IMG/VR virus record: IMGVR_UViG_3300019487_000022
Coordinates: 1-64,000 of that record
DNA length: 64,000 nt
From: a virus
Reading direction: 5' to 3' (one strand)
Each line of letters begins with the position of its first letter. Within the stretch, counting starts at the first letter, position 1. A program made the translations under genes and the position numbers. This document shows, one piece after another, positions 8,467 through 53,888 of the stretch. The notes beneath the pieces were generated by a model. That model saw only the letters and a list, made by a program, of their open reading frames with translations. It was not told where the DNA came from and did no database searches.

Positions 8467-8525
8467 GTTTTTGTTTCTTCCTAAAGAATCGACACAAAAA
8501 CTATGGCTACTTAAGCGTTTATTAG

Positions 8526-8966
8526 TTAAGGCTCTGCTTTTTCTACTTGCGGAGTTTCTTTCTCGACTTGCTGAGTTTTTTGAACGTCGCCAAACCAAAA
8601 TTCCTCAATCCATTCATTTAAACCTAACCCCCAGAGTTTTAACCCAAATAACAAAGCAACTAAGAAAAATAAAGCCAGCATTTTAGCTCTTAATGATCTT
8701 AATTGTTCAAATATTCCTATTCTACCGTTACCTCTCAAAGCTTCATCTACAGCATCTAATTTGTTATTTATTTTATTCTCTACAGTTTGTATTTGATTAC
8801 TAGTTTCTTCAGAGTAATTTTTCAATTCATCTTTTATCTCTGAAAATCCAGTATCTATCCTTTTATCAATACGGACTAATTCTCTATCGTATTGTTCTTT
8901 AATAAGATTTAACAATGTTTGAGTATAAGGATCGTTAAAATTGTTCTTTTCTGGATCTGTTGGCAT
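8526..8966 (-). CDS. Coiled-coil protein with C-terminal membrane helix (XhlA-like shape)
   Basis: 146 aa. Residues about 25-90 are a charged heptad-rich coiled coil ('RIDKRIDTGFSEIKDELKNY'), followed by one strong transmembrane helix (about 94-112, 'MLALFFLVALLFGLKLWGLG') and a short acidic tail. Small phage proteins with a coiled coil plus one membrane helix (for example the XhlA type) often act with holins or as membrane anchors, but no sequence-level family assignment is possible here. It lies between the protease gene and the giant glycosyltransferase gene on the same strand. Confidence 0.6.
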   Translation of the reverse strand: MPTDPEKNNFNDPYTQTLLNLIKEQYDRELVRIDKRIDTGFSEIKDELKNYSEETSNQIQTVENKINNKLDAVDEALRGNGRIGIFEQLRSLRAKMLALFFLVALLFGLKLWGLGLNEWIEEFWFGDVQKTQQVEKETPQVEKAEP

Positions 8967-14642: not shown

Positions 14643-14915
14643 CTAAAATAACGTTAGTTGTGCTTGTTGACTTTGAAAGTCTTGTTTTTCTTTTTCTTCA
14701 TTTATACACTGTATCGTCCGCAAGAGCTGTTTTGCTTTACCCCATGCCTTAGCTCTTATTAACGCATTAAGACGTGCAACAACGGTAGGATAATAACCAG
14801 GGCACCTATAACGAACGTTATCTATTAAAACTGTCATACCCTCTGGGTTGTATCTTAAAAGAATAACCTCTGGATATCCTGCTTCAATTATAAAACTTCT
14901 TTTAAACCAGTTCAT
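14643..14915 (-). CDS. Hypothetical protein
   Basis: 90 aa. Begins MNWFKRSFIIEAGYPEVILL, with a short beta-rich N-terminal part ('MTVLIDNVRYRCPGYYP') and a helical C-terminus ending in a Gln-rich tail. Not recognised. It is downstream of the DUF5661-like gene with a 3-nt gap, so co-transcribed. The MNWF opening recurs in the helicase at 36.1-38.5 kb, probably by chance. Confidence 0.55.
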   Translation of the reverse strand: MNWFKRSFIIEAGYPEVILLRYNPEGMTVLIDNVRYRCPGYYPTVVARLNALIRAKAWGKAKQLLRTIQCINEEKEKQDFQSQQAQLTLF

Positions 14916-22191: not shown

Positions 22192-23382
22192 TCACGCTAC
22201 TTTCAAATGTTTTCGCAAGGGGTTAATGACTACAGGCGTTGCGGCAACGCTCCTATCCCTTATTCCGAGGAACTCAGGGATTACTTTGCGTCCAATGTTC
22301 AAACTTCCGTTCACGTCGGCGTTCACGGCAAAGCCGTCCTTCGTGACGTACAATCCTCGATGCTTCCTCTTGCCTGAAAACTCGGAAACATCGTCGCCAT
22401 ACTTCGGCAGAGCGTCACGGTCGTAGAAACTCGCCTTGCTCGTATAGCTTTCTTCGGTGAAGACAACCTCGATCCCAGCCGCCAACGCTTTGTACTTGAT
22501 TTTCTCAAGCAGCAGATACGTTGGGACAGCACAGAATGCTTGGTTGGTCTTCTTGCCGAGGTTGATCCCGTTTTTCCATCCATCGTTCTTCCCAATGATT
22601 ATCGTACCGATGCCGTTGGTTCGGCATTCGGACACGATCATCTTCGAGACGTGATGGAAGTAGTTTTCCAAACGGAAGTACCTCTTACGCAGACGACTCT
22701 TACAGGGGCGTTTGTTGTACCACTGGTTGATATTCTTGACGATGCGACCGTTGACCAGTATTGGACGTGTCTGGTCTAAAGTTATCGCAGCCAAGTTGTT
22801 CAACCCGATGTCGATGGTGCAAATCTTCGCCTTGTCGAGTTTCGCCTTTTCTTTCTTCGCTTCTGGCTCACCGTCGTACTGAACTTCGATGACGAAGTCG
22901 AATCGTTTTGGGGTAATGACCACCTGTTTGTAGTTCTTGTCGCAGGGAATCGAGAAACAGTTATTGGTAGCCGTCAACTGCGTGAGCGGCTTACCCGTCT
23001 GACCGCCCTTGATCGTTTCGTTGTAGAAGATGACCTGTGCCATTTCTTCTTTGTAGTTGGGCGGCTTTGGGCATTTCACGAACTTGGACGTGTCCTTGCC
23101 GTAGGCGGTCAACGCCCTACGAAAGTTGCTCCAATCGGTCAGCACCTTGCGGACGGTCTGCTTCGCCGTCTTGGTGTTGTGTAGTTGTTTGAAGCAGTCG
23201 AGGTCTTTGACCTCTCGGATCAGGATGTTGATGTCGGGAAGTTGTGAAAATTTTGCTGGCGTTGGGGTGAACCACGCTTTTCGCATGAGGAACGTACAGC
23301 GATTGTACAGTTCCTTGGAGAGCGAGCAGAGACGGATAATCTCTGTGCTTCCCTTGTGAAAATGTCGTTCGACCATCAGCAT
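22192..23382 (-). CDS. tnpB: TnpB (RNA-guided nuclease of IS605/IS1341 family)
   Basis: 396 aa. RuvC-I is 'CTIDIGLNNLAAITLD' (about residue 190), RuvC-II region is 'TIIIGKNDGWK' (about 262) and RuvC-III 'VNADVNGSLNIGRK' (about 356). The RuvC-II site has Lys where the classical Glu stands; a Glu pair follows in 'FTEESYTSKASFYD', the arrangement of the TnpB branch with a displaced catalytic Glu. The usual zinc-finger Cys pairs are missing. TnpB proteins cut DNA guided by an RNA from the element's end. Base composition differs from its neighbours, indicating recent arrival. Confidence 0.9.
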   Translation of the reverse strand: MLMVERHFHKGSTEIIRLCSLSKELYNRCTFLMRKAWFTPTPAKFSQLPDINILIREVKDLDCFKQLHNTKTAKQTVRKVLTDWSNFRRALTAYGKDTSKFVKCPKPPNYKEEMAQVIFYNETIKGGQTGKPLTQLTATNNCFSIPCDKNYKQVVITPKRFDFVIEVQYDGEPEAKKEKAKLDKAKICTIDIGLNNLAAITLDQTRPILVNGRIVKNINQWYNKRPCKSRLRKRYFRLENYFHHVSKMIVSECRTNGIGTIIIGKNDGWKNGINLGKKTNQAFCAVPTYLLLEKIKYKALAAGIEVVFTEESYTSKASFYDRDALPKYGDDVSEFSGKRKHRGLYVTKDGFAVNADVNGSLNIGRKVIPEFLGIRDRSVAATPVVINPLRKHLKVA

Positions 23383-30564: not shown

Positions 30565-30858
30565 TTAAGGATGAGGAATATTAGCTTCTTTTCTATAAAG
30601 CTGACAACTTTCCCCACCTACCTCAAAATCCTTACAGACTGCAGGACGATGATCATAATGTTTACACTTTCCGGTAGATACATCAAGCCACATACATGGA
30701 ATAGCATCATCTGAGTATCGCACAGAATTAACATAAAGATCTATTTCTTGCTTAAATTCCGATGGTGGTTCATCTCCATCCATGTATGTAAAAGGAGGGA
30801 CATTCATATGCATACAACACATACCACAATCATTGCAATTAACTATGGGTAAATGCAT
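30565..30858 (-). CDS. YkgJ-like CxxCC cysteine-cluster protein
   Basis: 97 aa. 'CNDCGMCCMHMNVPPFTY' near the N-terminus and 'CMWLDVSTGKCKHYDHRP' then 'AVCKDFEVGGESC' give the Cys pattern of the YkgJ/UPF0153 family of small iron- or zinc-binding proteins, whose role is not settled. The family has been associated with metal clusters and with protein modification. Overlaps the phosphatase gene by 16 nt. Confidence 0.75.
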   Translation of the reverse strand: MHLPIVNCNDCGMCCMHMNVPPFTYMDGDEPPSEFKQEIDLYVNSVRYSDDAIPCMWLDVSTGKCKHYDHRPAVCKDFEVGGESCQLYRKEANIPHP

Positions 30859-31268
30859 TTTATATTCCCATGTTTGTTGAAAATTTCTTGACCCATACTA
30901 TAAGCTAATACGCATGTTCTTATTTTTCTTATCTCATCGTATATTTCTTCATATGGTTTATTCTCGGCAATAGATAGATAAGTCGCTATTACGTGTGGGG
31001 ATCTGCTTCTTCCTTGTTTGCAATGTACTAAAACAGTATGACCTTGTGATATTAGATTTTGCAAATCCTTAACTATGTTAGCAGTTTTGATTATTGCATC
31101 ATCTGCCTTATCTCGCATAGCAGACTTTACAGAAATAACTCCGCGATGATGTTCGGTAGCAAGTTCTTCTGCAACATTTAAAATTGCAGTAATTGGTGAT
31201 TTTAATATGTAAATAAGACGGGCATCGTGTTTATCACCTAAATATAAGTTATGACGTATCTTGTCCAT
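30843..31268 (-). CDS. Dual-specificity/tyrosine phosphatase
   Basis: 141 aa. The active-site loop 'VLVHCKQGRSRSPHVIATYL' (about residue 82) is the HCx5R signature of dual-specificity phosphatases; 'ILNVAEEL' near residue 32 and an Asp near 54 fit the rest of the fold. Dephosphorylates phospho-Tyr, Ser or Thr. In the same stretch of genome are a Ser/Thr kinase (33.5 kb) and a VWA protein, so a phage-borne kinase-phosphatase switch is plausible. Confidence 0.85.
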   Translation of the reverse strand: MDKIRHNLYLGDKHDARLIYILKSPITAILNVAEELATEHHRGVISVKSAMRDKADDAIIKTANIVKDLQNLISQGHTVLVHCKQGRSRSPHVIATYLSIAENKPYEEIYDEIRKIRTCVLAYSMGQEIFNKHGNIKCIYP

Positions 31269-31344
31269 ACGTATACTTACAATTTATTGCTATTATACAC
31301 CTTTATTTGATAAATAACTATATTGTATGATTGAATTTTAGATA

Positions 31345-32451
31345 TTATTTTTCCCTAAAAACTATCTTTGCAAATTTTTGTAATAGTGTTGGAGAACTAT
31401 TTTCTCGCCTCATTCTATTTATAGTTGAGTTAGTTTTTTCTGTTTTTCTAATAATATCTTTTATTATTTCATTATCACTTATTTCATCTTTTTGACTTAT
31501 ATTTGCGTAATCATCTTTAAATGAACAAAAAGCATTAACTGCCCTGGATAACTTCAAATCATCTAAGCATAAATCATCACAAAGCATCATCTTTTTATAG
31601 CCAATATCATACAACCATGCTAATTCTGAAAAATCAACTGCATCAGGTACAGAACGACTAACACAGGATAAAAGAATTCTGGAACCAACAATTGCATTAG
31701 GATCAGCCTGAATAATAGTTTTCATGGCGTTAAGAATTTGATGAGGTTTCGGAACTTCTACATACAAATCACCTCTAGCTGCCATTAAACATAAATTAGA
31801 TTGACGTTTATAACCTTTTTTAACCCAATTTAATCCTTTAATACTTTCAATTTTTGCCACGATTTCTGCGTCTTTTCCTACATATTCTCTTAACTCATCG
31901 ATATCTCTTTGGCTTTCGACATAGGATAAAACATATTTATTAAAGCCTGCTGCTTTTACTTTCTTGATTTTTTCAATTTCATAGTCTGGAAATGTCCCAA
32001 AAACTTTAAACGAATCGTCTCTTATACAAATAGATTCCCCAGTTTTTACATTAAATTTAGGAGCGCCTGGTGCAAAATGAAGAATTTGTTCTCCTGTTAT
32101 TCCATCTTGAGTAATCTTATTCAAAACCGCATAATCTTCGCCAGCTTTAAAAAGAACCGTAGTTGGAGTTTTAACCTCAATCTTATGATTTAAGATTATA
32201 CGTAAATGGTCTTCTTTTGGAATGACTTTACAGATTCTAAGTTGCCTTCCCTTGATATCATAATATAGAGGATTAGCAGTACCTTCGGATTGACGTAGCT
32301 TAACTTGTTCTAACTCTCCATCTAATTCTGATAAATCCATCATTGCGCTATTGATTCTAATTCCAGCAATACGATCATCAAAGACAAACTTTTTAAAGTG
32401 AGGCATTGATGGAGAAAGCGTAACTAATAGATCTACAGAATTAGTTTTCAT
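31345..32451 (-). CDS. Pyruvate-kinase-like TIM-barrel protein
   Basis: 368 aa. Starts 'VDLLVTLSPSMPHFKKF', like the N-terminus of pyruvate kinases ('TKIVaTlGPas'); has 'EIVAKIESIKGLNWV' (about 190, catalytic-Lys/Glu region) and 'LCLMAARGDLYVEV' (about 220, the 'vaRGDLGvEi' metal-binding motif). The C-terminal allosteric domain of pyruvate kinase is missing and the B domain seems small. Could be a pared-down enzyme feeding ATP/pyruvate, or a relative with another substrate. A phage metabolic gene of this kind is unusual. Confidence 0.65.
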   Translation of the reverse strand: MKTNSVDLLVTLSPSMPHFKKFVFDDRIAGIRINSAMMDLSELDGELEQVKLRQSEGTANPLYYDIKGRQLRICKVIPKEDHLRIILNHKIEVKTPTTVLFKAGEDYAVLNKITQDGITGEQILHFAPGAPKFNVKTGESICIRDDSFKVFGTFPDYEIEKIKKVKAAGFNKYVLSYVESQRDIDELREYVGKDAEIVAKIESIKGLNWVKKGYKRQSNLCLMAARGDLYVEVPKPHQILNAMKTIIQADPNAIVGSRILLSCVSRSVPDAVDFSELAWLYDIGYKKMMLCDDLCLDDLKLSRAVNAFCSFKDDYANISQKDEISDNEIIKDIIRKTEKTNSTINRMRRENSSPTLLQKFAKIVFREK

Positions 32452-32466
32452 ATTCTTTGCCTTTAT

Positions 32467-33492
32467 TTAATCAAGCAAAGACTTGCTGCTTTTCGAGGCT
32501 GAATCCGCTGTTCTACGAGTAATAGAAGCGCCTTTGGGACCAGGCAATTTCTTTTGAGTCTTTTTTGCATGGGGCAACCGCCCAGGTTCTCTGCCATGAA
32601 TAGTTACGAGAGATTTCATAACCACTTCAATCTTCTTTTCACCGTCCGCATCCTTTAGTTGTCTGTCTTTCAATTCGTCCTTAAATTCTTTGATTTTTCC
32701 GGTAGCTTTAGCAAAAATTCCGAAAATGACATCAACAACTCTACTTGCTTCCGGCAGTGGCGCAATATGATCTTTACCTAGTAATTCTTCCCATTGGGAT
32801 TCAATTTTGATATCTGCATCGCTCATTCGGTTTCCAACAGCGCCATAAGGCTTTCTGATGATATAAACATCCCATTTCTTAGTTAATTCCTCCATGATAT
32901 CTTTGAGAAACATGGAACTGGATGTTTTAACTTTACAGAATTTTTCTGCATGGTCTGTGTACAGTTGTGGATGAATACCTTCATCGCCAATAAAGATTAG
33001 GATGGGACGGATAGCATTTGGAGTATCACAATTCCTAGAATAGTAAATAGCGGCTAAATCATAACTTTCTTGACAAGAACCTCCACCCCCACCTTCAATA
33101 ACTAACTTCTTCAATTTCTTTTCCAGCTCTTCGCCAGAATCAAAATTCTGTACCTGCAAAGCATATTTATCACAGTAAGCATCACCTACAGCTGCAAATG
33201 AAATAGAATAATTATCTCCAAAATAAAACTTAGCTTCATGATCAAGATATGGTAGTTTAGAGAAAATTGTAGCGGGCCATTCTCCCATTGAACCAGTTAC
33301 ATCACAAACGATAACAATAGGATTTTCACTGTCTGTACTGACTCTATCTGGTACTAAATCAGTAACAGCGATGCCCTTTTTGACAGCATCATCATAACTT
33401 CTTCCTGCATGTATATCATAAGCAGCACGGGCTGATTTAAAAGTATCATGACTTGCCCAAGGCGCCGGTGTATAATCATTATCTTCTGGCAT
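32467..33492 (-). CDS. VWA-domain protein
   Basis: 341 aa. The domain occupies about residues 55-270: MIDAS motif 'IVIVCDVTGSMGEWP' (DxSxS-like DVTGS, about 62), a Gly-rich loop 'IEGGGGGSCQESYDLA' with the Thr/Ser ligand, and 'PILIFIGDEGIHPQL' with the third acidic ligand. The C-terminus is Lys/Arg-rich and probably disordered ('SITRRTADSASKSSKSLLD'). Neighbours are a Ser/Thr kinase (12-nt gap) and the pyruvate-kinase-like gene. VWA proteins next to kinases and AAA+ ATPases occur in bacterial signalling modules. Confidence 0.85.
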   Translation of the reverse strand: MPEDNDYTPAPWASHDTFKSARAAYDIHAGRSYDDAVKKGIAVTDLVPDRVSTDSENPIVIVCDVTGSMGEWPATIFSKLPYLDHEAKFYFGDNYSISFAAVGDAYCDKYALQVQNFDSGEELEKKLKKLVIEGGGGGSCQESYDLAAIYYSRNCDTPNAIRPILIFIGDEGIHPQLYTDHAEKFCKVKTSSSMFLKDIMEELTKKWDVYIIRKPYGAVGNRMSDADIKIESQWEELLGKDHIAPLPEASRVVDVIFGIFAKATGKIKEFKDELKDRQLKDADGEKKIEVVMKSLVTIHGREPGRLPHAKKTQKKLPGPKGASITRRTADSASKSSKSLLD

Positions 33493-33503
33493 TGATTATC
33501 TCC

Positions 33504-34481
33504 TTAGATTGGTAAAGGTTTCATTTTTGAAAATCTTCGCCCAAAAGATTTTTCTCTTACGTCACTTATAGATTGACATAAATCTTCTTTTTGCCAATTT
33601 GGGCGAGATAATACATTAAATTGAATCAAGTTTTTAATGAATTTACAAATTTCGTCAGGAACAGATGGTGGAACCGCTTTTGAAGTCACGTCTCCACCTA
33701 AAGCGTAAATCATCGTCATTCCCAAACTAAAAAGGTCTGACTCAGGAATTAATGGCATTCCTTTGGTTTGTTCTGGAGAAGCAAAATACGGCGTAAAACC
33801 CTTGTTTTTAGTAGTAGAATTTGGTTTAACTGCCGATAAGCCATAATCTACCAATACGACAGAATGGCGGTCTGGTTGCACAATGATATTTTGCGGTTTA
33901 ACATCGCCGTGAACTACGCCATGTGTATGTAAATATCTGAGAGCATTTAAAACACGTTCTGTAATCCAACAAACATGTTCAGGTTCTAGTTTGCCATGTT
34001 TTTCTACTATTTGTCCTAATGTCGCGCCAGGAACATAACTCATTACAATTGCTAAACTATTATCATCTAATTTGATTATTTCTCTAATTGCCGGAATAGC
34101 CCAATGTCGCAAATCCCAGATAGCCTTAGCCTCTTCTTTCATTATCTCTTCGTCTTGCAAACTAATTTGATTTGCATGCTTAATGCAAACATGTGTTCCT
34201 AATAATTCATGGCGGGCTTTATAAGTTGTTCCAAATCCCCCTTCTGCAATCGCGTCTTCTAGAATATAATTTCCAATTTTCTTTACTTTCTTAGGCGAAT
34301 TTTCCTTATCATAAGCTGAGCGTTTATCTGTGTTTAAAAGTATTTCTTTTGCTTCATTTAAGTCTTGTAAAATTTTAGGGTTAGAAGCATGTTTAAGAGC
34401 TAAAGTTCTGTATGCCATATGAATGACTTCTTGACATGCTTTAGGATTTACCTCAAGGATGTTGTAATAATTCTTTCCCAT
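33504..34481 (-). CDS. J-like domain plus Ser/Thr protein kinase
   Basis: 325 aa. Residues 1-60 look like a J domain ('NYYNILEVNPKACQEVIHMA', 'NEAKEILLNTDKRSAYDK') but the HPD motif that stimulates Hsp70 is missing (KHASNP). Residues about 65-325 are a Hanks-type kinase: Gly loop 'AEGGFGTTYKARH', Lys in 'HVCIKHAN', catalytic loop 'VVHGDVKPQNIIV' and 'VDYGLSAV' in place of DFG, then 'ASPEQTKG'. Predicted active Ser/Thr kinase, cytoplasmic. Adjacent VWA and nearby phosphatase genes suggest one signalling set. Confidence 0.85.
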   Translation of the reverse strand: MGKNYYNILEVNPKACQEVIHMAYRTLALKHASNPKILQDLNEAKEILLNTDKRSAYDKENSPKKVKKIGNYILEDAIAEGGFGTTYKARHELLGTHVCIKHANQISLQDEEIMKEEAKAIWDLRHWAIPAIREIIKLDDNSLAIVMSYVPGATLGQIVEKHGKLEPEHVCWITERVLNALRYLHTHGVVHGDVKPQNIIVQPDRHSVVLVDYGLSAVKPNSTTKNKGFTPYFASPEQTKGMPLIPESDLFSLGMTMIYALGGDVTSKAVPPSVPDEICKFIKNLIQFNVLSRPNWQKEDLCQSISDVREKSFGRRFSKMKPLPI

Positions 34482-34497: not shown

Positions 34498-35730
34498 CTA
34501 GGTTTTAGTTTCTGGAGAAAAGGTTTCTGGTATTCCAAATATCGTTTGATTTACCAGCCTTTTTGTTTTATTTTTAGATTTTGTTTCTTTAATAAATTTA
34601 TTTAAGTTTGCGTCTTCATAATCCGCTGGTACTAAATAACTAACGAGAGAAGGACGTGTAATTACCATACCGATTGTTTCAAAACAAACCAAACCTACTT
34701 TAAGATTTGGGATATTACGATCAGGATAAGTTTTTAAAGGCAAAGCAGTTTTAAAATTACCCAATTGCTTAGGGTCTCCGCTGAATAATATTCCGCCTGG
34801 ATTCATATACCTTGAAACCAAAATATCTGCATCTTTGTATTTTCCAAAACTATATTTAGGACCGACGCCTTTCATAAGATCTAAGTTATTTACTTTTGAA
34901 AAATCCCAGTCTTTCCCACGATATGTTCTCATTTCTGCGTAGTCTAATGTATGACATATCATGTATTTAACTTGGATCTGTTCGTTTACTGCATTATAAG
35001 ATTTTGCAATTAAATTCTCAGTTATTCCGCCTGTGTATTCTATTATATTTTTTGAAATATAAGCAGAGGCTCGTAACATAAAGAAAAGATGAGAATTTTC
35101 ACATTGTGCAATAGATTCGCAGGTTATTGCAGAAAGACGACGAAAAACAGACGATCTATTATGTTCTAAGTCCGATATTTTCAAAGTGGGTCTTGCAGCA
35201 ATTTGTACTGGTAATGGAAAAATTTCTTTTACATCTTTTATAACGTGAGCTGAATCCCCTTCTAAAACCAATACCGGAGAATTAGTTACTATTGGAATAG
35301 CTGCAAAATTGTGTACCGTTTCTGTTTCATCTTCCTTTTTGTCTTCTTCTGAATTTAGAACTATCATAGGAAGTGATAAACTTCTAATTTTCTTATGGTA
35401 TGATTCATTTATTTTATTTTGGATTGATGAAGGTTTTATATCCAATAACTCTTTTATATCATCTATATTTAAATCTTTTAGTATATCTGAAAAGTTATTA
35501 TGAAATCTTATTTCAGAGTGATTTATTTCGTTCGTATCAGAATCTGTGCTTTCTTTTGGTAAATTATTTTTAATATCATTTGCATAAATTTCGACACAAC
35601 TGCGAATTAAATCTACATAAGATATATCCATATTTCTTTGAAATGATAACTTTCTTGCCTCTTGTTGTATTAAAGCAATTGTTTCTGGTAAAAACCTCAT
35701 TGTTATAGGTTGCAACTCTGATTCATTCAT
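34498..35730 (-). CDS. Ribbon-helix-helix domain fused to a major-capsid-protein-like domain
   Basis: 410 aa. N-terminal about 55 residues ('ITMRFLPETIALIQQEARKL', 'YVDLIRSCVEIYANDI') resemble a ribbon-helix-helix DNA-binding unit. From about residue 165 the protein is alignable by eye along its length with the capsid protein at 53.0-53.9 kb: 'LPVQIAARPTLKISDLEHNR' against 'PTFEIGANPTVRLSEIKAHR', 'AITCESIAQCENSHLFFMLR' against 'QIKAKEAIQKEEDTHIFAAL', and 'LKVGLVCFETIGMVITRPSL' against 'LRLGWVIYEEVGIVVVNDYS'. It is therefore an HK97-fold paralogue, not in the head operon. Possible roles: minor capsid component or a regulator binding DNA. Confidence 0.65.
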   Translation of the reverse strand: MNESELQPITMRFLPETIALIQQEARKLSFQRNMDISYVDLIRSCVEIYANDIKNNLPKESTDSDTNEINHSEIRFHNNFSDILKDLNIDDIKELLDIKPSSIQNKINESYHKKIRSLSLPMIVLNSEEDKKEDETETVHNFAAIPIVTNSPVLVLEGDSAHVIKDVKEIFPLPVQIAARPTLKISDLEHNRSSVFRRLSAITCESIAQCENSHLFFMLRASAYISKNIIEYTGGITENLIAKSYNAVNEQIQVKYMICHTLDYAEMRTYRGKDWDFSKVNNLDLMKGVGPKYSFGKYKDADILVSRYMNPGGILFSGDPKQLGNFKTALPLKTYPDRNIPNLKVGLVCFETIGMVITRPSLVSYLVPADYEDANLNKFIKETKSKNKTKRLVNQTIFGIPETFSPETKT

Positions 35731-35823
35731 ATTCTTCTCCGATTACAAGATTACACGATTACATTTTTATATCGTTATATTATTGACAATTAATTTAATA
35801 TAGTGTAAATAACTTCTATTAAT

Positions 35824-36127: not shown

Positions 36128-38488
36128 TTATTGTTTTGGATGTTTAAGTATGTGTAGCTCATTTTTGGCGCGAGTATATGCAATATATTTTGCATTAGCC
36201 TCTTGTCCTAATTCTTCTTCAGATTTAGCTTTTGGATGAGGAAATAACTCATTATGTAATATAAACACTCTATTAAATTCTAATCCTTTTGAACGGTGAG
36301 CGCTTGTTAAAGTGATAAAAGATGCTGGATCCTTTTTCTTTAAAACACCAGCGCCTTCAACCGTGTCGATATTGATGCCAGCGAATCTTTGTTTTAAATA
36401 AGATATAAATGAATTAGTATCTCTAATAACAAAATTAAGTCTGCGGTCAATGAAATTTGTTCCTCTTAAATGCTCTACAATATGCGAAATGGATGCAGAA
36501 ATGTCTTGCATTTCTTTTAATTCATCTGATTTGCTTAATTTACCAGCCCACTTCTGTTCCACATCAGTCATAAATCTATCAATTTCTCGCGTAAAACCAG
36601 ATATCGGAATGTTCTTTGCAAACCTGCCTTTGCCTGTAATCATTTCTACAAATCCAACTAACTCTTGAGAGAAATCACGACCTATAATCGCAAATTCCAT
36701 ATCATTTTTCATTAATTCTAATGCAGCATCAACAAGCGGTCTATTTGTTCTGGATATAAATGCTGTTTGGTCTTTTAATTTATTACCTTGTTTCCATTCG
36801 TTAAATAAATTACCCAAAGCTTCATCATACATTGTGCCATTTGTTACCGAACCAGTATGCTTAGCACCAGCAACCAAGTTTTTAACATGGGTATTTTGAT
36901 TTACAAAATCAATAATTGCCGTTCCACAACGATAATTAGCAGGTAATTCATGTAATTTACTAGCTTGAGCAGTCCCTTGAATAGTAGTTTGAATGTTATC
37001 AAATGCTTTGGCGTCTGCCCCTCTAAACATATAAATTGCTTGATTTGGATCACCTACTGCAACTACACGAGACTGAGCTTTCAATAAATTCTCTATCATC
37101 TTCATCTGGCATTTGTTGAAATCTTGGACTTCATCAGCTAATACTACATCATATTTAGGCCAAATTAGATTAGGATTTAATGCAGTATACCATAATGTGT
37201 CATCCTGATCCCTAAAGCCCTGGAAATCTGGATTTATAGCGTTATTCGGCAAACAATAATGTAAAACATCTAATGTTTTATCAATTAGCCTGTTAGCCCA
37301 ATTAACGTTGCTAGTATGACGTTCTGTAGATAAGTCTGTATCAATTTGATATTGCTTTATAATACTTTCTATTAACGATGCAGCTTTGGCATCTTGAGGA
37401 TCTATTGCATACGCCTTACTTAACGATGCTAATCTTTTAATAGTTCTTTTTGCAGCAAAACGAACTTGACGTGGAAAAATATTATCTTCTTCCATAATTT
37501 CATCAAGAATGGCATTTATGCGTTCGCCCTTCTGGTTCCAAATATCTGTGGCAGGAGCCACGCTTTTTTGAGCATTTGTATTCAATAACTCACCGAGGAA
37601 AGAGTGACTAGTTTTGACTTCTACACCATTTGGAAAAGCACCATCACCTGTTGAAGCTTCAACTTGATTCTTCTTATTAAAGACTAAGTATAACCATCTT
37701 GCACTAGGATCTTTAAATGATGCCAAGTGTCTTAATTGGGTTGTTTTCCCCGTACCAGCTAAAGCATTAATAACTATACTATCATTTGTTTGTAAAAATG
37801 TATTTTCAATCGCCTTATTATAAGGACTCATTCTGCTTTCTGGCATCCTGCCTGGAACAATATTTTCTTCTTCAACTTTTTGTTCTTCAATAATTCTCTG
37901 ATCTTCAGGTTGTTCATTGTCAAAAAATGTAAATAAGGCAACAGGATCTGTCCCTGTCAAAGGTTTACCTTGTGTATCTCGTATGGATTTAACTAAATTT
38001 TTAATGTTGCTTGCCGGGAATACACCTTCATTACCAGAACGATCTAACCATATCCATTGATTACCATCTATTGATTTAGTTACGACTACAGGAGCATTGT
38101 CACTTATACGTTTTGACAATACCCATGTTGGAGCGCCTGGTTGGACATTCTTATTAAACCAATTTCCGCCTGTTTGTTGAGGAACAGCAGTAGGATTATT
38201 TACCGCTGGTGATGGTGAATTAATTGGTTGAGTTATTGGTTGCTGAGGGGTTTTGAATGGGATGCCAAATGATTGCAGAAGGCTTAAGGCAATAGGATTA
38301 TTAGGTATTTGATCATATTGTGATTTCCAAATTCTATTTTTATCATCCCAACGGAAGCCAGCTTGAAACAGTTGTGACCTGGATTCATATGTACCATTTC
38401 CGAATAGTCCCAGATATTTTAGACCATCTGTATCCGTAAAAACTCTACTGTTTATGTTTGCAGCCATTATCTCTTTAAACCAGTTCAT
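36128..38488 (-). CDS. UvrD/Rep-like superfamily 1 DNA helicase
   Basis: 786 aa from the ATG at 38488 (the longer frame starts with TTG). Motif I 'INALAGTGKTTQLRHL' (about residue 234), motif II 'VLADEVQDFNKC' (about 450; DEVQ), motif III 'VAVGDPNQAIYMFRGAD' (about 478), motif V 'TLTSAHRSKGLEFNRVFILH' (about 720) and motif VI 'YIAYTRAKNELHIL' (about 770) are all present. The N-terminal about 200 residues include a small domain ('ESRSQLFQAGFRWDDKNRIW') and a Pro/Gln linker. 3'-5' helicase for replication, repair or recombination. Confidence 0.9.
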   Translation of the reverse strand: MNWFKEIMAANINSRVFTDTDGLKYLGLFGNGTYESRSQLFQAGFRWDDKNRIWKSQYDQIPNNPIALSLLQSFGIPFKTPQQPITQPINSPSPAVNNPTAVPQQTGGNWFNKNVQPGAPTWVLSKRISDNAPVVVTKSIDGNQWIWLDRSGNEGVFPASNIKNLVKSIRDTQGKPLTGTDPVALFTFFDNEQPEDQRIIEEQKVEEENIVPGRMPESRMSPYNKAIENTFLQTNDSIVINALAGTGKTTQLRHLASFKDPSARWLYLVFNKKNQVEASTGDGAFPNGVEVKTSHSFLGELLNTNAQKSVAPATDIWNQKGERINAILDEIMEEDNIFPRQVRFAAKRTIKRLASLSKAYAIDPQDAKAASLIESIIKQYQIDTDLSTERHTSNVNWANRLIDKTLDVLHYCLPNNAINPDFQGFRDQDDTLWYTALNPNLIWPKYDVVLADEVQDFNKCQMKMIENLLKAQSRVVAVGDPNQAIYMFRGADAKAFDNIQTTIQGTAQASKLHELPANYRCGTAIIDFVNQNTHVKNLVAGAKHTGSVTNGTMYDEALGNLFNEWKQGNKLKDQTAFISRTNRPLVDAALELMKNDMEFAIIGRDFSQELVGFVEMITGKGRFAKNIPISGFTREIDRFMTDVEQKWAGKLSKSDELKEMQDISASISHIVEHLRGTNFIDRRLNFVIRDTNSFISYLKQRFAGINIDTVEGAGVLKKKDPASFITLTSAHRSKGLEFNRVFILHNELFPHPKAKSEEELGQEANAKYIAYTRAKNELHILKHPKQ

Positions 38489-38564
38489 TACTGTATCCAC
38501 TTTAATCAAAGTTAATACAGTTTAAATTCGTCTTTTTTACTGGTTCCCCTTTGTTTTTAAAAAC

Positions 38565-45266: not shown

Positions 45267-47726
45267 TTGACTGTTCAACCTTATACATACATAGAACCCG
45301 ATGGAACCCTTCGCAATTACTTATATACAGCTCATTCTGCGAAAGAAGAAAAAGGTATATCTAAACAATACTATGCAAAACATATCGTAGGACCAATTAG
45401 CCAAATAGAAAAAAAACTTTTGCTTTATAAAAATGTTATTCCAAATGATGTTTTTGAGTTTTTACATTTTATTACAATAAATGCATTTTTATATCATGAT
45501 TTAGGGAAGTTAGACGACCAGGCTCAACAAGTTTTAAATAAAAAAAATAATGATAAAATGCTAAATCATGTTGATGCCGGAGTAGCTTATCTGATCAAAT
45601 TAGCAGAAAATTCGGATAACATTCCTAATAGGAATGGATATTTATATGCAGCCTATATTGTCCATGCTCATCATATTGGGCTTATGGATTTTGAAGAAGT
45701 TTTTTCGTTAATTAATGGCTTGGATCTTAAACCTAAAAAGAAGATACGTGATGAAAAAGATCTTAATATTTATAATTTAGGTATTGGAACCGTTAAAAAT
45801 AGAATAGATAGTACATTAAATAACATAATCCAAAAGCACGAACACGATTTAAAAGATCACTATATTAACACACCATTACAATGTCCAGATATATCTCCTA
45901 ATGCTACAATTCTCAGAATGGCACTTTCTATCTTGGTGGATGCAGATCATTTTGATACATCTACACATTATCATCCAGAAATATCATTTATAACAAGACC
46001 ATTACGTATCGATGAACGTATAAAAAAATTAAAAACGTATGTTAATAAGATATATAAAAATTCATTGAGAAAACAAAATAATCACAAACGTATTAACTTA
46101 AGAAACAAACTTTTTAACATTTGTTGTAATATTAAAACTGATAAAGATTTTTATTGTTTTGATGCGCCTGTAGGAAGTGGTAAAACTGTAGATACAGAAA
46201 TCCTTGCTTTAAGAATTTGTAAAGAGCAAAACAAATATGGTATTATTCATATTGCGCCATTTCAAAATCTAGTTAGCCAACTAGCTAGTGTTTATCGTAA
46301 AACCTTAGTTCTACCAGATGAAAAAGTGGTTATTCATGATATTGTTAACGAAGTACATTCCTCTATGGAATATTCAGACATTCATTATCGACATCTTTCG
46401 AGATTGTATTATACTCCTTTTACTATCTTAACTGCGGTAGAAGCATTAGAATCTCTAACAACAAATAGACCGTCCAGAAGTAAAAAATTAAACCATTTTA
46501 TTAATAAAGTAATTATCTTAGATGAATTTCATCTTGTGCCTTATCATCTGTGGCCTTTACTTTTTAGAAATTTACAAAATTTAGTTAGAAACTTTGGATG
46601 TAAAATTATATTTTCTTCTGGATCTTTTGTCCAATTCTGGAATATTCCAGAACTTTTTGATTTGGATGAAAGAAATAGTATATCAACATTTAAAATTTAT
46701 GATGTTGCTATGGAACATCCAAAAATTTATCAACAAATGCAAAAGGAAGAAAGAAATCGTTGCAAAGTAAGATATTTAAAAGACGCTTTTCAAAGTGCTA
46801 AACAATTTAGTAATCATTTATTTCTTAAACATAATGAAAAGAATCAAAGTGTATTAATTATACTTGACACAATTGCTAACGCAAGATCAGTTTATAAACA
46901 TCTTATTGATTTAGTTGGAGAAACCAATGTAATATATCTGACTAACTCTCTTACTCCAATTCATCGTCGTCCTATTTTAAAAAGAGTGCGAAATAAATTA
47001 AAACATAAACAAAAAACGTGGTATTTTGTGGCTACGTCGTGTATCGAATCAGGTATAGATATCTCGTTTGATGTAGGATATAAGGAATTAACTTCTAGTT
47101 TTAGTGTTATCCAAGCAAAAGGGCGAGTTGCTAGACATGCTGAAAAAGAGGGGATTTTTTATGTAATGAATTTTACTCACAAAGCAGAAGAAATTACTCA
47201 TAATCCGGTACATTTTAAAGCGCGTCGGGTAGCATTTGAAGAAATCATTAAGAATTTAAATTCTAAAAAAGAATGTAAATTCGATATGAATCCAAAGAAA
47301 TCAACATATTATGCACAAAGAGAAATTCAATCTGATTCTGAAATATCAAAAAACGCAAGATTTCTTCTTGAAAATGAAAGAAAGAAAAATTTTTCCACTG
47401 TAAAATATTTCTCCAGACTTATTCACGATTTTACGTATGATGTGTTAGTTGATAAAGAACTTGAAAAAAAGATTGAAAATGGAGAGTATATTCACGCTGC
47501 TAGACTAAGCAAATATTGTTTTCAAGTCTCTATCTCCAGGTTTGAAAAAATGAAGAGATTAGGACTTGTAAAAGAACTTAGTATTCCTAATGAGAAAGAC
47601 ACTACTGTTGATAATGAAGATTTAGACAACGATAGAGAAAAAATTTATTCTTATACAGGCTTGTATTCAAAAAAAATGGGTTTCGCTGCAGAAGACAAAA
47701 TCTTTACCAAAGAGGATTGCAAATGA
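45267..47726 (+). CDS. cas3: Cas3 helicase-nuclease (HD domain plus SF2 helicase)
   Basis: 819 aa, TTG start with CGGAG six nt upstream; no ATG lies before the HD motif, so this start is needed. HD nuclease domain: His in 'TAHSAKEE' near 24, His77-Asp78 in 'YHDLGKLDD', 'NHVDAGVAYL' (about 103) and 'VHAHHIGL' (about 132). Helicase domain: Walker A 'DAPVGSGKT' (299-307), DExH box DEFH (419-422), 'FSSGSF' (motif III-like), 'CIESGIDIS' (about 598) and motif VI 'QAKGRVARH' (616-624). The C-terminal 'YSYTGLYSKK' ending is typical of Cas3. Known role: with type I Cascade, it unwinds and shreds target DNA. Here no Cascade genes are near; it overlaps the Cas12-like gene by ATGA and shares its transcription. 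Confidence 0.9.
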   Translation: MTVQPYTYIEPDGTLRNYLYTAHSAKEEKGISKQYYAKHIVGPISQIEKKLLLYKNVIPNDVFEFLHFITINAFLYHDLGKLDDQAQQVLNKKNNDKMLNHVDAGVAYLIKLAENSDNIPNRNGYLYAAYIVHAHHIGLMDFEEVFSLINGLDLKPKKKIRDEKDLNIYNLGIGTVKNRIDSTLNNIIQKHEHDLKDHYINTPLQCPDISPNATILRMALSILVDADHFDTSTHYHPEISFITRPLRIDERIKKLKTYVNKIYKNSLRKQNNHKRINLRNKLFNICCNIKTDKDFYCFDAPVGSGKTVDTEILALRICKEQNKYGIIHIAPFQNLVSQLASVYRKTLVLPDEKVVIHDIVNEVHSSMEYSDIHYRHLSRLYYTPFTILTAVEALESLTTNRPSRSKKLNHFINKVIILDEFHLVPYHLWPLLFRNLQNLVRNFGCKIIFSSGSFVQFWNIPELFDLDERNSISTFKIYDVAMEHPKIYQQMQKEERNRCKVRYLKDAFQSAKQFSNHLFLKHNEKNQSVLIILDTIANARSVYKHLIDLVGETNVIYLTNSLTPIHRRPILKRVRNKLKHKQKTWYFVATSCIESGIDISFDVGYKELTSSFSVIQAKGRVARHAEKEGIFYVMNFTHKAEEITHNPVHFKARRVAFEEIIKNLNSKKECKFDMNPKKSTYYAQREIQSDSEISKNARFLLENERKKNFSTVKYFSRLIHDFTYDVLVDKELEKKIENGEYIHAARLSKYCFQVSISRFEKMKRLGLVKELSIPNEKDTTVDNEDLDNDREKIYSYTGLYSKKMGFAAEDKIFTKEDCK

Positions 47727-50700
47727 ATAATTATGACAATTATTTGAGTGATTATCTTGCTATGTTACCACATACTAAAAGAACTGAAATTAAAAAAACG
47801 GCTTCTAAAATTTCTCGAAAATTGAATCAAAAAGAGGTAAAGAAACAAATTGAACGATCAGAGTATATTCGTAGTAACTGTGGTTATATCAATATAGAAA
47901 GACCTCAAAAAAGTTTATCATTTCTTTCATACAGCACAATTAAAAGTGCTTGTATGAGTGTAAATTTTCGCGCTTTTCAAAATCCTATTAATGATTACGA
48001 AACCGCCATTTGCAATGGTATTAACGAATGTGAACGTTTCTTCTATCAACAGATAGACAGTATATATATGAGCCAAATTATTGAACAGCTATTTGATTTT
48101 TATATAGCTTCACGGCAGCATGATATGTTTATTAACAATACAGTTGTACCATATGATGTGAATAAATTAAAATCTTATTACACGGCAAATGAAAAATATT
48201 CTTTTGAACAATTTTGCGATGATATAAAAGAATTCACTAATAAAGGGTTTACCTCTGGTGGGGTTAGCTGTATTCTGAATCTTTTTTATAAAGGATCTGT
48301 AAAAGATTCGAAAAATAAAAAAGATTATATAAAATCAGTTAAGCGATTAGAAACTAATGGCCTATTTAAAAAATTAAACATATTTGAGAAAAATGGTATT
48401 TCTAAATATTTTGCTGCGAGTACACTAAGCACATTCTTTGCTACAATTTCAAGCTGGAAAAAACAAAATGATGATTGGACTGGGGTGGCTAAAGATGGCA
48501 CTTCTCTGTTATCTAAATTAGAAAACAAAACTATTACTCTTCAATCCATTATTAAACACCATCGTGTAATCAATGAATTAGCCGTACTTATTGTGAAAGC
48601 TTATAAAGATCCTGTTAAAACCCTGAATAACTTATTTGAAGAAAGAAGCGATAACAACAACGATTTTAAATATACATGTTCAGATGACGAAGATAAATAT
48701 CCTATGTATATTAAAAGAGAGATAGCGGAGTTTGTTAAAAAACATAAAACTGTGTGGGAAGAAATTCGATATTTTGATGAATCTGATACAAAGAAAAAGA
48801 AAAGAGATAAAAAGGAAAGTTCATCAGATGATAAATCTTACTTATGTTGTGGCGATTCCTGGGATTATCTTAAGACATGGGTAAGACTTTATGGAGAATA
48901 TTATTTTTTTGATAATGCATTAAATCAATTTTTGCGCAAACCTTCTGCTTCGATGCATTTGTATACATCATTAGATTGGATTAATAAGAAGACTATATGT
49001 ATTGTCGGAGCTAATTATTATAAAATTGGAAAAGTAGAAGTTGTTGAACGTAACAATCAAAGATTTTTACTTGTTTATGTCTCTGTTCCTGAAATGGAAA
49101 ATTATATTATTATTCCGCTTCAACTCAATAAATACTTCGGAAATTTTCAATGTAAAATTTTTGAAGGTAGATTACAAGCAATTTTTAAACGATACGCAAA
49201 TTTTAATGCTCTAAAGAACAATAAACCGCAACCTTCTCCAAATATCTCTGTGCGCATTAATGAATTTCATTTTGCGTTACGCTCTTATCGAAAACAACAG
49301 ATATCAGCGGAGGATTTCTCAAAAGGGAGATTTTCTTTAATCTCTAAAATCGGCTTTCAAATGACTAACGATGAAGTTTTTGGAAGAACTCCTAGAGAAA
49401 TTGCCCTTGTTAAAGATCATCTCAGTAAAGGCTATGTTCATTTTGGATCTCAAATTATTGAAGATTCACGCAAAGAAGTGGAACAAGTTCTTAAAAAACC
49501 TATGATTTTAATGGGAGTTGATTTTGGATACTCTCCGCTTGCGTCATACAATATAAAGCCTCTACAAACGGGTAAACCAGCTACAGATTGGGTTAAAAAT
49601 CTTCACGGTAATTTCTTATGTCAAAATGTCTCTCTAGGGGAGACTATTACCGAAGGGGAAATCGGAGATGTTCCGACAGATACATATACCAGCTCAAATG
49701 AAATCTATTCTATCGCTACCTTAACGTTTCGTAATGCAGATGGTAAATTGGAAAACAGAAGTTTCTCTAGGTTTTATCACGAATTAAACAACACCTTAAA
49801 TATCATTGAACAAATTAAAGGTACTTTTAATTTTATACACTCAATCAACACACAATTTAAAGAAATAAAAGCTTTGAAAACAACTGAAGAATTTTCGTCT
49901 TACGTTAGCACTTTAACATGGGATCAATTTATTGAAGATTCGAGAAAAACAGCTCGTTACTCGAAATATTGGATTCATATTATTAATGAAAATCCAAAAC
50001 GACGTACAATTGCAACACTCAATGAAACATTAAAACTTGTAGATGAAAAACATCGTTTTACCGTGACCATACAAGAAATTTTTGATCTTGTAAAATATTG
50101 TCAACAACATGGTTATTATCCGAAGTCTAATGTTATGTCCAAATTAAGAAATCTTGCAATAAAGTTAATTAATGATTTGATCCGTTATCAAAAGATTGGA
50201 ATTCATAGCTGTTATCTAGACTTTTGTGTTCTCATTAAAAATCATATCGCTTTATTGAATTCTTCAACAGCTTTTATCATTAATTTTAGTAGGAACAAAG
50301 AAAATATTATTCGTAACAACACATCAAAGATACACTCTTTGTGGGTATACCGTGATAATTTTCGTCGCCAGATGATAAAAAATTTATGTTCCCAAATTTT
50401 AAAAATTGCTGCAAAAAACAAAGTTCATATTGTTGTTGTTGAAAAGCTTAACAACATGCGAACCAACAATCGAAATAACGAAGATAAAAATAATATGATT
50501 GATCTCTTAGCAACTGGTCAGTTTAGAAAACAACTGTCAGATCAAGCTAAATGGTATGGTATTGCTGTGGTAGATACCGCAGAATATAACACTTCCAAAG
50601 TAGACTTTATGACAGGCGAATATGGATACAGAGATGAAAATAATAAACGGCATTTTTATTGCCGTAAACAAGATAAGACTGTTTTATTAGATTGTGACAA

Positions 50701-51130
50701 AAAAGCTTCTGAAAATATACTTCTAGCATTTGTTACACAATCTCTCCTGTTAAATCATCTTAAAGTCTTAATAACAGAGGATGGAAAAACAGCGGTTATT
50801 GACTTAAGTGAAAGAACGACTGAACCGCAAAAAATAAGGTCCAAAATTTGGACTAACTCAGATGTGCAAAAAATTATCTTCTGTAAACAAGAGAATGGTT
50901 CTTATGTATTAAAGAAAGGTAGTACAGACATTAAAGAAAAAATGCATAAGGCTGTCTTGCATAGGCATGGTTCACTGTGGTATGATTATTTAAATCATAA
51001 AAATATGATTGAAGATATTAAAAATCTTCATCTTTCCAACTGCTCTTTGACAACTAGCACGAACTCTGATGTGATTAATTCACACTCTGGATCCTCTCGA
51101 TCTCTTGATAAGACAAAGACTTATGCTTAA
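47723..51130 (+). CDS. Cas12-like RuvC effector (candidate crRNA-guided nuclease)
   Basis: 1135 aa from the ATG at 47723 (AGAGG upstream, ATGA overlap with cas3; a TTG two codons earlier is less likely). A split RuvC nuclease fills the C-terminal half: RuvC-I 'LMGVDFGYSPLASYN' (Asp600), RuvC-II 'IVVVEKLNNMR' (Glu907) and RuvC-III 'LDCDKKASENILLAF' (Asp992, D-xx-A-xx-N-I spacing as in Cas12/TnpB). Between II and III, 'LLATGQFRKQLSDQAKWYGI' then 'NTSKVDFMTGEYGYRD' matches Cas12 (for example Cas12i) in layout; the zinc-finger Cys pairs are absent. The N-terminal 590 residues have no detectable similarity by eye, with a Lys/Ser-rich linker near 355-370 and a beta-rich stretch about 430-480. Length fits Cas12a/b/i (1000-1300). 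Adjacent array supports the role. Confidence 0.8.
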   Translation: MNNYDNYLSDYLAMLPHTKRTEIKKTASKISRKLNQKEVKKQIERSEYIRSNCGYINIERPQKSLSFLSYSTIKSACMSVNFRAFQNPINDYETAICNGINECERFFYQQIDSIYMSQIIEQLFDFYIASRQHDMFINNTVVPYDVNKLKSYYTANEKYSFEQFCDDIKEFTNKGFTSGGVSCILNLFYKGSVKDSKNKKDYIKSVKRLETNGLFKKLNIFEKNGISKYFAASTLSTFFATISSWKKQNDDWTGVAKDGTSLLSKLENKTITLQSIIKHHRVINELAVLIVKAYKDPVKTLNNLFEERSDNNNDFKYTCSDDEDKYPMYIKREIAEFVKKHKTVWEEIRYFDESDTKKKKRDKKESSSDDKSYLCCGDSWDYLKTWVRLYGEYYFFDNALNQFLRKPSASMHLYTSLDWINKKTICIVGANYYKIGKVEVVERNNQRFLLVYVSVPEMENYIIIPLQLNKYFGNFQCKIFEGRLQAIFKRYANFNALKNNKPQPSPNISVRINEFHFALRSYRKQQISAEDFSKGRFSLISKIGFQMTNDEVFGRTPREIALVKDHLSKGYVHFGSQIIEDSRKEVEQVLKKPMILMGVDFGYSPLASYNIKPLQTGKPATDWVKNLHGNFLCQNVSLGETITEGEIGDVPTDTYTSSNEIYSIATLTFRNADGKLENRSFSRFYHELNNTLNIIEQIKGTFNFIHSINTQFKEIKALKTTEEFSSYVSTLTWDQFIEDSRKTARYSKYWIHIINENPKRRTIATLNETLKLVDEKHRFTVTIQEIFDLVKYCQQHGYYPKSNVMSKLRNLAIKLINDLIRYQKIGIHSCYLDFCVLIKNHIALLNSSTAFIINFSRNKENIIRNNTSKIHSLWVYRDNFRRQMIKNLCSQILKIAAKNKVHIVVVEKLNNMRTNNRNNEDKNNMIDLLATGQFRKQLSDQAKWYGIAVVDTAEYNTSKVDFMTGEYGYRDENNKRHFYCRKQDKTVLLDCDKKASENILLAFVTQSLLLNHLKVLITEDGKTAVIDLSERTTEPQKIRSKIWTNSDVQKIIFCKQENGSYVLKKGSTDIKEKMHKAVLHRHGSLWYDYLNHKNMIEDIKNLHLSNCSLTTSTNSDVINSHSGSSRSLDKTKTYA

Positions 51131-51227: not shown

Positions 51228-52053
51228 GTTGTAATGCATTACGTTAAAGTAATGTTATGCAACATGGTCCAGGCGGATTCCAAATCCATAACGTAGCTTC
51301 GTTGTAATGCATTACGTTAAAGTAATGTTATGCAACATTAGCTAAGCCAACGCAATACTAAGACAGCGCACAGTTGTAATGCATTACGTTAAAGTAATGT
51401 TATGCAACATGACTGAGCAAGGTACATCATCGGGATATTATGAGTTGTAATGCATTACGTTAAAGTAATGTTATGCAACTACCTTCGGATAATATTTGAC
51501 TGTTTAATTGTCTCGTTGTAATGCATTACGTTAAAGTAATGTTATGCAACTCTCTGATGAAATTGTTATGTAGATACTCAATAATAGCGTTGTAATGCAT
51601 TACGTTAAAGTAATGTTATGCAACTCTATTCGGATACATATGCTCTTCTTGCGCAAATGAGTTGTAATGCATTACGTTAAAGTAATGTTATGCAACAGAT
51701 AAAATGATTGCCGTTAGGCGGGTAGATATGCGTTGTAATGCATTACGTTAAAGTAATGTTATGCAACAGAGTCAGCGAAGCGTAAGGTATGATTCCGCAG
51801 CGTGTTGTAATGCATTACGTTAAAGTAATGTTATGCAACTCAGTCAAAACAATATCAACAAGGCATAATCTAACGTTGTAATGCATTACGTTAAAGTAAT
51901 GTTATGCAACAGGGTAGCATTCACAGTATTTCTCATAGTTATTCGAGTTGTAATGCATTACGTTAAAGTAATGTTATGCAACGTCCTGGTATATTGTGGA
52001 ATATGATCCGTTCCAGCGTTGTAATACATTATGTTAAAGTAATGTTATACAAC
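51228..52053 (+). CRISPR. CRISPR array, 12 repeats of 36 nt, 11 spacers
   Basis: Repeat starts GTTGTAATGCATTAC and ends GTAATGTTATGCAAC, with loop GTTAAA between; the two halves form a near-palindromic hairpin. Repeats start at 51228, 51301, 51373, 51444, 51515, 51589, 51661, 51732, 51804, 51875, 51947 and 52018. The first eleven are identical; the last has three changes (positions 9, 15 and 32), marking the leader-distal end. So transcription runs left to right, in the same direction as cas3 and the Cas12-like gene. Spacers are 35-38 nt, all different, none obviously matching elsewhere in the window by eye. Confidence 0.97.
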
Positions 52054-53003: not shown

Positions 53004-53888
53004 TTAGCTTGCGCTAACTACTTCGATTTTCGACATACTATAGTCATTGACAACTACAATACCGACTTCCTCATAGATTACCCAACCCAAACGTAATTTC
53101 TTAGGATCATCGCATGGGATAACGGTGATTTCCTGACGAACAGGGAATGCACCGACGTTTTCAGCAGCAGCGAGAACAAGAACGGTGTTCTGTTCCATGC
53201 GGCTGGTTACGTGGATATCGGCAGTCCATAAGTGACCGAACAACCCAGTTGTGATAACTTCGCGCTGAGAAGCTTCGTCATAGAAGGTCTTACCAAGTAC
53301 GCGAATTGACGAGTACTGGAGAGCATTCATAACGATCTTAGCAGCTACTAAGTCGTGCTGTTCAATCAAGCGGAAAGCAGTGTTCAAAGAAGCAACGGAA
53401 AGAGTCCCGATGTTCTGAACAATTTGATCTCCACCTTCTTTGTTATCAGCAGCAGAAATCAAAGCAGCGAAGATATGTGTATCTTCCTCTTTTTGAATAG
53501 CTTCTTTAGCTTTTATCTGTGCGCGATCAACGATATAAAAGCGGTGAGCTTTAATTTCGGATAAGCGAACAGTTGGGTTTGCACCGATTTCAAATGTTGG
53601 AACGAGAATTTCTTCTGCTTCAATAATTTGATCAGGTACACCACCACGGCGGCTGATAACAGTTGCCTTAGCTGCAACGTCACGTTCGTAACGAGCAGTA
53701 GCACCCTGTGGGAGTTCGTCAACCATCAAGAGCTTGCGACCGACAGCTTGATACTCAAGAGATCGGCGAATAGGCTCTACCATTGCCTGAGCAAGAGCAG
53801 TACGACCTTCTGGAGTTTCCATAGCCTGAGCTATAATCCATTTGCGCTGTTCTTGTGTTAAACCATTTTTTACCATTGCCATTGTCAT
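53004..53888 (-). CDS. Major capsid protein (HK97-fold)
   Basis: 294 aa, with strong ribosome site TTAAGGAG. N-terminal helices ('LTQEQRKWIIAQAMETPEGR'), then 'VPTFEIGANPTVRLSEIKAH', 'SSIRVLGKTFYDE', 'TADIHVTSRMEQNTVLVLAA' and 'LRLGWVIYEEVGIVVVNDYS', the order of segments in HK97-fold capsid proteins of large myoviruses (the E-loop-like region near 80-120, P-domain helix near 125-150, A-domain beta strands). Forms the head shell. It lies in head-gene order after protease, decoration-like protein and portal. A divergent paralogue is encoded at 34.5-35.7 kb. Confidence 0.85.
   Translation of the reverse strand: MTMAMVKNGLTQEQRKWIIAQAMETPEGRTALAQAMVEPIRRSLEYQAVGRKLLMVDELPQGATARYERDVAAKATVISRRGGVPDQIIEAEEILVPTFEIGANPTVRLSEIKAHRFYIVDRAQIKAKEAIQKEEDTHIFAALISAADNKEGGDQIVQNIGTLSVASLNTAFRLIEQHDLVAAKIVMNALQYSSIRVLGKTFYDEASQREVITTGLFGHLWTADIHVTSRMEQNTVLVLAAAENVGAFPVRQEITVIPCDDPKKLRLGWVIYEEVGIVVVNDYSMSKIEVVSAS

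Follow-up and report, generated by a model that had tools for sequence, protein, structure and literature searches.

We found that a phage G-like giant phage carries, besides its major capsid protein (MCP), a second and strongly diverged copy of this protein as part of a larger fusion. Residues ~156 to 365 of the 410-aa product are confirmed, by sequence profiles and structure modeling, as a diverged MCP paralog with a predicted HK97 fold of the phage G type. The evidence also strongly supports the view that the paralog is a duplicate turned accessory gene and no bulk shell protein. The gene lies in a 64,000-nucleotide stretch of DNA (here called the window), which is part of a 123.8-kb virus record. 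The relevant features of the protein and the comparison gene are as follows.

34498..35730, minus strand: capsid-paralog fusion protein (P0001), 410 aa; open reading frame with matches to phrog_2522 and to an MCP profile
35563..35688, minus strand: N-terminal helix pair (residues 15 to 32 and 38 to 56) predicted by AF2, ribbon-helix-helix (RHH)-like by eye only, with no family or fold match
34615..35283, minus strand: HK97-fold, MCP-homologous domain plus flanks, about residues 150 to 372 (profile match at 156 to 365)
53004..53888, minus strand: MCP, used as the comparison gene

The reading frame of the paralog is intact from ATG to stop (410 codons). In a PHROG profile search, phrog_2522 ("major head protein") matched residues 168 to 363 with an E value of 4.4e-13 (2e-64 for the MCP), and a search of the phage's own 123.8-kb record with the paralog as query recovered the MCP (E = 1.5e-9). 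A profile of ~80 related MCPs scored 74 bits on residues 156 to 365, and none of 1,000 shuffled copies was reported. The sole phmmer match in the PDB was 6WKK, the gp27 capsid protein of Bacillus phage G (E = 2.9e-7). The full AF2 model was poor overall (mean pLDDT of 57.5); given an alignment of MCPs, AF2 predicted the A/P-domain core confidently (pLDDT of 80 to 94 in parts), including a long spine helix at residues 185 to 225. Since the input alignment consisted of MCPs, this model cannot count as independent evidence beside the sequence result. Foldseek placed mainly HK97-fold capsids at the top of its PDB matches (probability of 1.0; TM-scores of 0.2 to 0.4, which are low because the domains of the model are loosely placed), and phage G gp27 was the first match in BFVD. 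A reading of the sequence alone had proposed that the protein is homologous to the MCP from about residue 165 and sits far from the head operon. Sequence profiles, the match to a solved structure and the fold search bear out the homology, the predicted fold being HK97-like, and the distance was confirmed to be about 17 kb; the head operon, with its decoration protein and protease, holds the other copy, the MCP. As judged from its sequence, the paralog thus belongs by descent to the phage G capsid family (PHROG 2522). The MCP itself is 53% identical to phage G gp27, which places the phage among the phage G-like giant phages.

Tailed phages normally have a single, tightly conserved capsid gene. 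The paralog shares with gp27 the homologous stretch of residues ~156 to 365 and the same HK97 A/P-domain core. However, the two are only about 20% identical, and the paralog differs in having a new N-terminal region with the predicted helix pair and a C-terminal tail, in lying outside the head operon, in having lost most of the invariant residues and in lacking the codon bias of the MCP. Only 35 of 144 near-invariant residues (positions at least 95% conserved across 75 MCPs) are kept by the paralog, compared to 66 of the 144 in the distant MCP of LR745208 and 50 in the MCP of a Bxz1-type phage; for phage G gp27 the figure is 106 of 149, counted on slightly different positions. The N-arm and E-loop, whose residues are used between subunits, have lost the most (10 of 55 near-invariant residues kept). 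In its codon usage the paralog resembles an ordinary gene (GC3 of 0.20; codon correlation of 0.908), whereas the MCP is deviant (GC3 of 0.366; correlation of 0.514) and the decoration gene also has a raised GC3 (0.36). This indirect evidence gives no sign of bulk expression. Due to both the retention of just 35 residues and the absence of MCP-type codon usage, the paralog is probably not a bulk shell protein, and as it fails the genomic and conservation features of the capsid family, capsid protein is not a fitting name for its function. The suggestion that it might form a separate compartment likewise found no support, given the lost N-arm and E-loop residues and a codon usage unlike that of bulk shell genes. 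In a tree, the branch of the paralog was very long and saturated, so that rooting it and establishing its exact origin failed. It matches MCPs of its own clade much better than remote MCPs, which agrees with a duplication in this clade or close to it.

The N terminus had been read from the sequence as resembling a CopG/MetJ-type fold, and of this reading only the helix pair was borne out, as a prediction. AF2 predicts helices at residues 15 to 32 and 38 to 56 both in the full model and when the N terminus is modeled alone without an alignment (pLDDT of about 72 to 82 for the pair in the latter case), so a helical pair is indeed predicted within the first 56 residues. Residues 8 to 13 are extended before the pair, and no strand was assigned in the AF2 monomer. 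The RHH identity was not recognized by any profile or fold tool. Pfam and PHROG searches of the N terminus gave no match, the PF01402 profile was absent from the window's record, and a Foldseek search returned nothing significant (the RHH protein NikR ranked third with an E value of 2.2). A small profile built from seven classical RHH domains scored the N terminus no better than shuffles, 708 of 1,000 of which reached as high a score; this negative result is weak, as the profile, itself weak, recovered MetJ and FitA poorly in leave-one-out runs. The assignment as RHH by profile or fold was therefore set aside as unsupported. The N-terminal domain is RHH-like by eye only, its modeled helices being only compatible with a DNA-binding RHH domain.

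Tandem 8-bp boxes are the binding sites of MetJ-type RHH proteins, and autoregulation is common among RHH regulators. The leader of the paralog contains the following feature.

35741..35763, minus strand: three tandem 8-bp repeats (TGTAATCN x3), a candidate operator just upstream of a GGAGA ribosome-binding site

The 93-bp gap to the divergent gene includes TGTAATCG TGTAATCT TGTAATC, which ends right before the GGAGA site. The triple repeat has 0 mismatches, and such a triple match would not arise by chance (shuffle mean of 0.01); exact triple 7-mers with periods of 7 to 11 occur at two loci only in the 123.8-kb record, this one included, versus none in ten Markov resamples. Because the repeat was noticed after the fact, and because Tandem Repeats Finder, run with a low threshold, reported 31 rows for the window, it is suggestive only. 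No second site was found in the 123.8-kb record. A promoter scan of the leader gave nothing on the minus strand, and the region was no richer than shuffles in intrinsic terminators or sigma-70 promoters. The paralog resembles MetJ/CopG-type repressors in a predicted helix pair that follows a short extended stretch and in leader repeats reminiscent of met boxes, but it differs from them in lacking any profile or fold match and in being fused to a capsid domain, and its DNA binding is hypothetical.

The paralog is the first gene of a cluster, with gaps of 16, 11 and 15 bp leading to the next three genes. The cassette region spans positions 30843 to 34481 of the window and was compared with loci L119, L127 to L143 and L120.

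33504..34481, minus strand: J-domain/Ser-Thr kinase fusion, 16 bp downstream of the paralog (PF00226, 2e-8; PF00069, 5.5e-35)
32467..33492, minus strand: vWA-like protein (phrog_2971), 11 bp downstream of the kinase; the name vWA comes from a weak Pfam match
31345..32451, minus strand: pyruvate-kinase (PK)-barrel-like protein, 15 bp downstream of the vWA-like gene (PF00224, 1.3e-8)
30843..31268, minus strand: dual-specificity phosphatase-like protein, after the PK-barrel gene (PF00782, 2.7e-15)

At least 10 further contigs of huge phages, and LR745208 as well, have the order kinase, vWA, PK barrel; Bxz1-type phages have the kinase-vWA pair. The phages that host the cassette differ in capsid type and include some without a detected PHROG 2522 capsid. 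None of the other cassettes compared has a capsid paralog in front: LR745208.1 shares the same downstream genes in the same order, but neither there nor at the Bxz1-type mycobacteriophage pair does the paralog precede them. A conserved operon of paralog and kinase cassette was therefore rejected, and the recurrence of the cassette without the paralog identifies the cassette as a module of its own and the paralog as a private addition. Elsewhere, the kinase-vWA pair adjoins an adenylosuccinate-synthetase-like gene in other phages.

Searching 50 related virus records with the paralog yielded only their MCPs, plus two trivial partial matches in one record (G010), and a PHROG capsid profile run on 23 records gave a second capsid-domain match only in the window's record. 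Phage G, LR745208 and the Bxz1-type phage have one capsid copy each and no paralog; relatives with the same shell, among them phage G and records of 296 to 548 kb, do not have the second copy. In the relative G001, the UvrD helicase and head genes are collinear with those of the window, yet positions 20 to 60 kb of G001 contain neither the paralog nor the kinase cassette. Searches for orthologs in IMG/VR, GTDB genomes, phage records and plasmids, using the whole protein, the capsid domain and the N terminus, returned only MCPs or nothing; the IMG/VR and GTDB scans use short exact peptide patterns, so orthologs below about 70% identity could escape them, and they may omit records very near the window's genome. 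Since most virus records are fragments and these scans need near-exact peptides, the rarity of the paralog is supported, not proven. A search of open-license papers turned up no description of a capsid/RHH fusion or comparable capsid paralog. The paralog can be compared with T4 gp24 and similar capsid-vertex paralogs, which are second HK97-fold copies beside the main capsid protein. Yet gp24 is a conserved structural gene, whereas the paralog, an accessory gene placed before a signaling cassette, is unconserved: conservation among phages with the same shell, a trait of the vertex type, is not seen, as the 50 records and phage G hold no comparable second copy. A related 476-kb phage (G039) encodes, far from its real MCP, a stand-alone MCP fragment detected by profile search.

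L217:4589-5002 (G039:C1:193.6 kb): MCP N-arm/E-loop fragment of 137 aa

Several other features of the window and its relatives were recorded. A Cas3-like HD/helicase gene (PADLOC Cas3c, 4.5e-84) stands directly before a gene for a 1,137-aa Cas12-like nuclease (Cas12h, 1.2e-15; Cas12f1-like TNB domain), beside a CRISPR array of 12 36-bp repeats (window 45267 to 51130, plus strand, and 51228 to 52053). A pairing of Cas3 and Cas12 on a phage is unusual; the spacers of the array had no match in the comparison loci. Separate from the Cas12-like gene is a TnpB-like gene (OrfB_IS605/Cas12f1-like TNB; 22192 to 23382, minus strand). A 2,027-aa giant protein (54573 to 60656, minus strand) starts with a head-maturation-protease-like domain (phrog_18299, 1.9e-9) and adjoins the decoration and MCP genes, and a 2,022-aa protein (2530 to 8598, minus strand) combines several glycosyltransferase and methyltransferase domains in one chain. 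Many proteins of this phage group that are otherwise unrelated begin with a shared tag, either MNW[FY]K... (at least 11 open reading frames in 40 kb of G001) or MR[TV]IRT.G[YW]K (about 5 there). Carriers lie in loci L237 and L238 (both G001), L239 (G025) and L084 and at positions 36128 to 38509 and 14643 to 14915 of the window. By analogy with the capsid-targeting sequences of T4, the tag resembles a common targeting or packaging peptide.

What might such a duplicate do? Our preferred explanation, to which we assign a probability of only about 0.3, is that it was repurposed as a low-abundance accessory protein, regulatory or adaptor, that acts on the leader repeats and senses capsid. The paralog would no longer build shell. 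Its N-terminal helix pair would form dimers that bind the triple 8-bp repeat of the paralog's leader, and this binding would control both the paralog and the kinase cassette behind it. The target of the capsid-like domain would be capsid protein or shells in the course of assembly, and the arrival of capsid protein could then change the expression or activity of the cassette. The triple repeat and the position of the gene as the first before the kinase cassette fit regulation, and we favor such a role because of the ordinary codon usage, the lost shell residues, the saturated branch and the absence from the collinear G001. Against it, no profile or fold search recognizes an RHH domain and DNA binding is presumed; the repeat was found after the fact and has no other target site in the record; the cassette occurs without the paralog in at least 10 other phages; the gene is a singleton, with no relatives showing a conserved operon or operator; and the promoter scan of the leader was blank on the minus strand. 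The more specific version, a transcription regulator that uses a retired capsid protein as its sensor, reads the capsid state and switches the kinase cassette through the 8-bp tandem operator, we consider doubtful.

Two serious rivals have to be weighed. It is conceivable, as a minority view, that the paralog is a capsid decoy or assembly poison whose diverged domain binds capsid-sensing host defenses or is built into the shells of related competitor phages and stalls them, serving as an accessory weapon or shield. This is plausible because bacterial immune systems are reported to be directly triggered by capsid proteins (CapRel, PMC9712102; a TIR system, PMC11312562) and virion assembly is a target of defense by inhibition (PMC10884400). 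An accessory, fast-diverging gene missing from relatives agrees with such a role, as do the CRISPR array and Cas3- and Cas12-like genes of the same window, which constitute an arsenal, and the stand-alone fragment of G039. However, the low codon adaptation is unfit for titrating an abundant capsid, the case for co-assembly is weakened by the loss of most of the conserved N-arm/E-loop residues, and the extra N-terminal domain is left unexplained.

The other serious rival, which we hold to be somewhat unlikely, is a minor virion component present in few copies in the shell, for example at a special site, with its N-terminal domain inside and touching DNA. General precedents exist: an N-terminal extension of an HK97-type capsid protein can point into the shell, as the HK97 delta domain does, and T4 gp24 illustrates that capsid paralogs can serve as minor shell parts. 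The HK97 fold is retained according to the profile, AF2 and Foldseek. Nevertheless, the gene is remote from the head operon and missing in relatives whose shell is the same, such as phage G and the records of 296 to 548 kb, the interface regions are the least conserved, and MCP-type codon bias is absent.

The tight gene spacing would also suit an adaptor or pseudo-substrate of the adjoining J-domain kinase and vWA proteins that couples phosphorylation or chaperoning to capsid assembly, and help in virion assembly has been proposed as a role of the J-domain and MoxR-vWA proteins of jumbo phages (PMC7824862); we regard this as improbable, as the cassette is found without the paralog, also in phages without a detected phrog_2522-type capsid. 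Least probable of all is that a duplicated capsid gene became fused by chance and now drifts as a neutral by-product with no function; this would agree with a singleton on a very long branch, but a 410-codon frame, ordinary codon usage and a recognizable fold after such divergence suggest selection.

A duplicate that keeps its fold, loses most of its shell residues and is placed before a signaling cassette would represent a viral shell protein exapted inside the virus. It also draws attention to the J-kinase/vWA/PK-barrel cassette, which recurs in unrelated huge phages. If the paralog senses capsids or interferes with them, it would offer a concrete way to learn how giant phages keep watch on assembly or compete over it.
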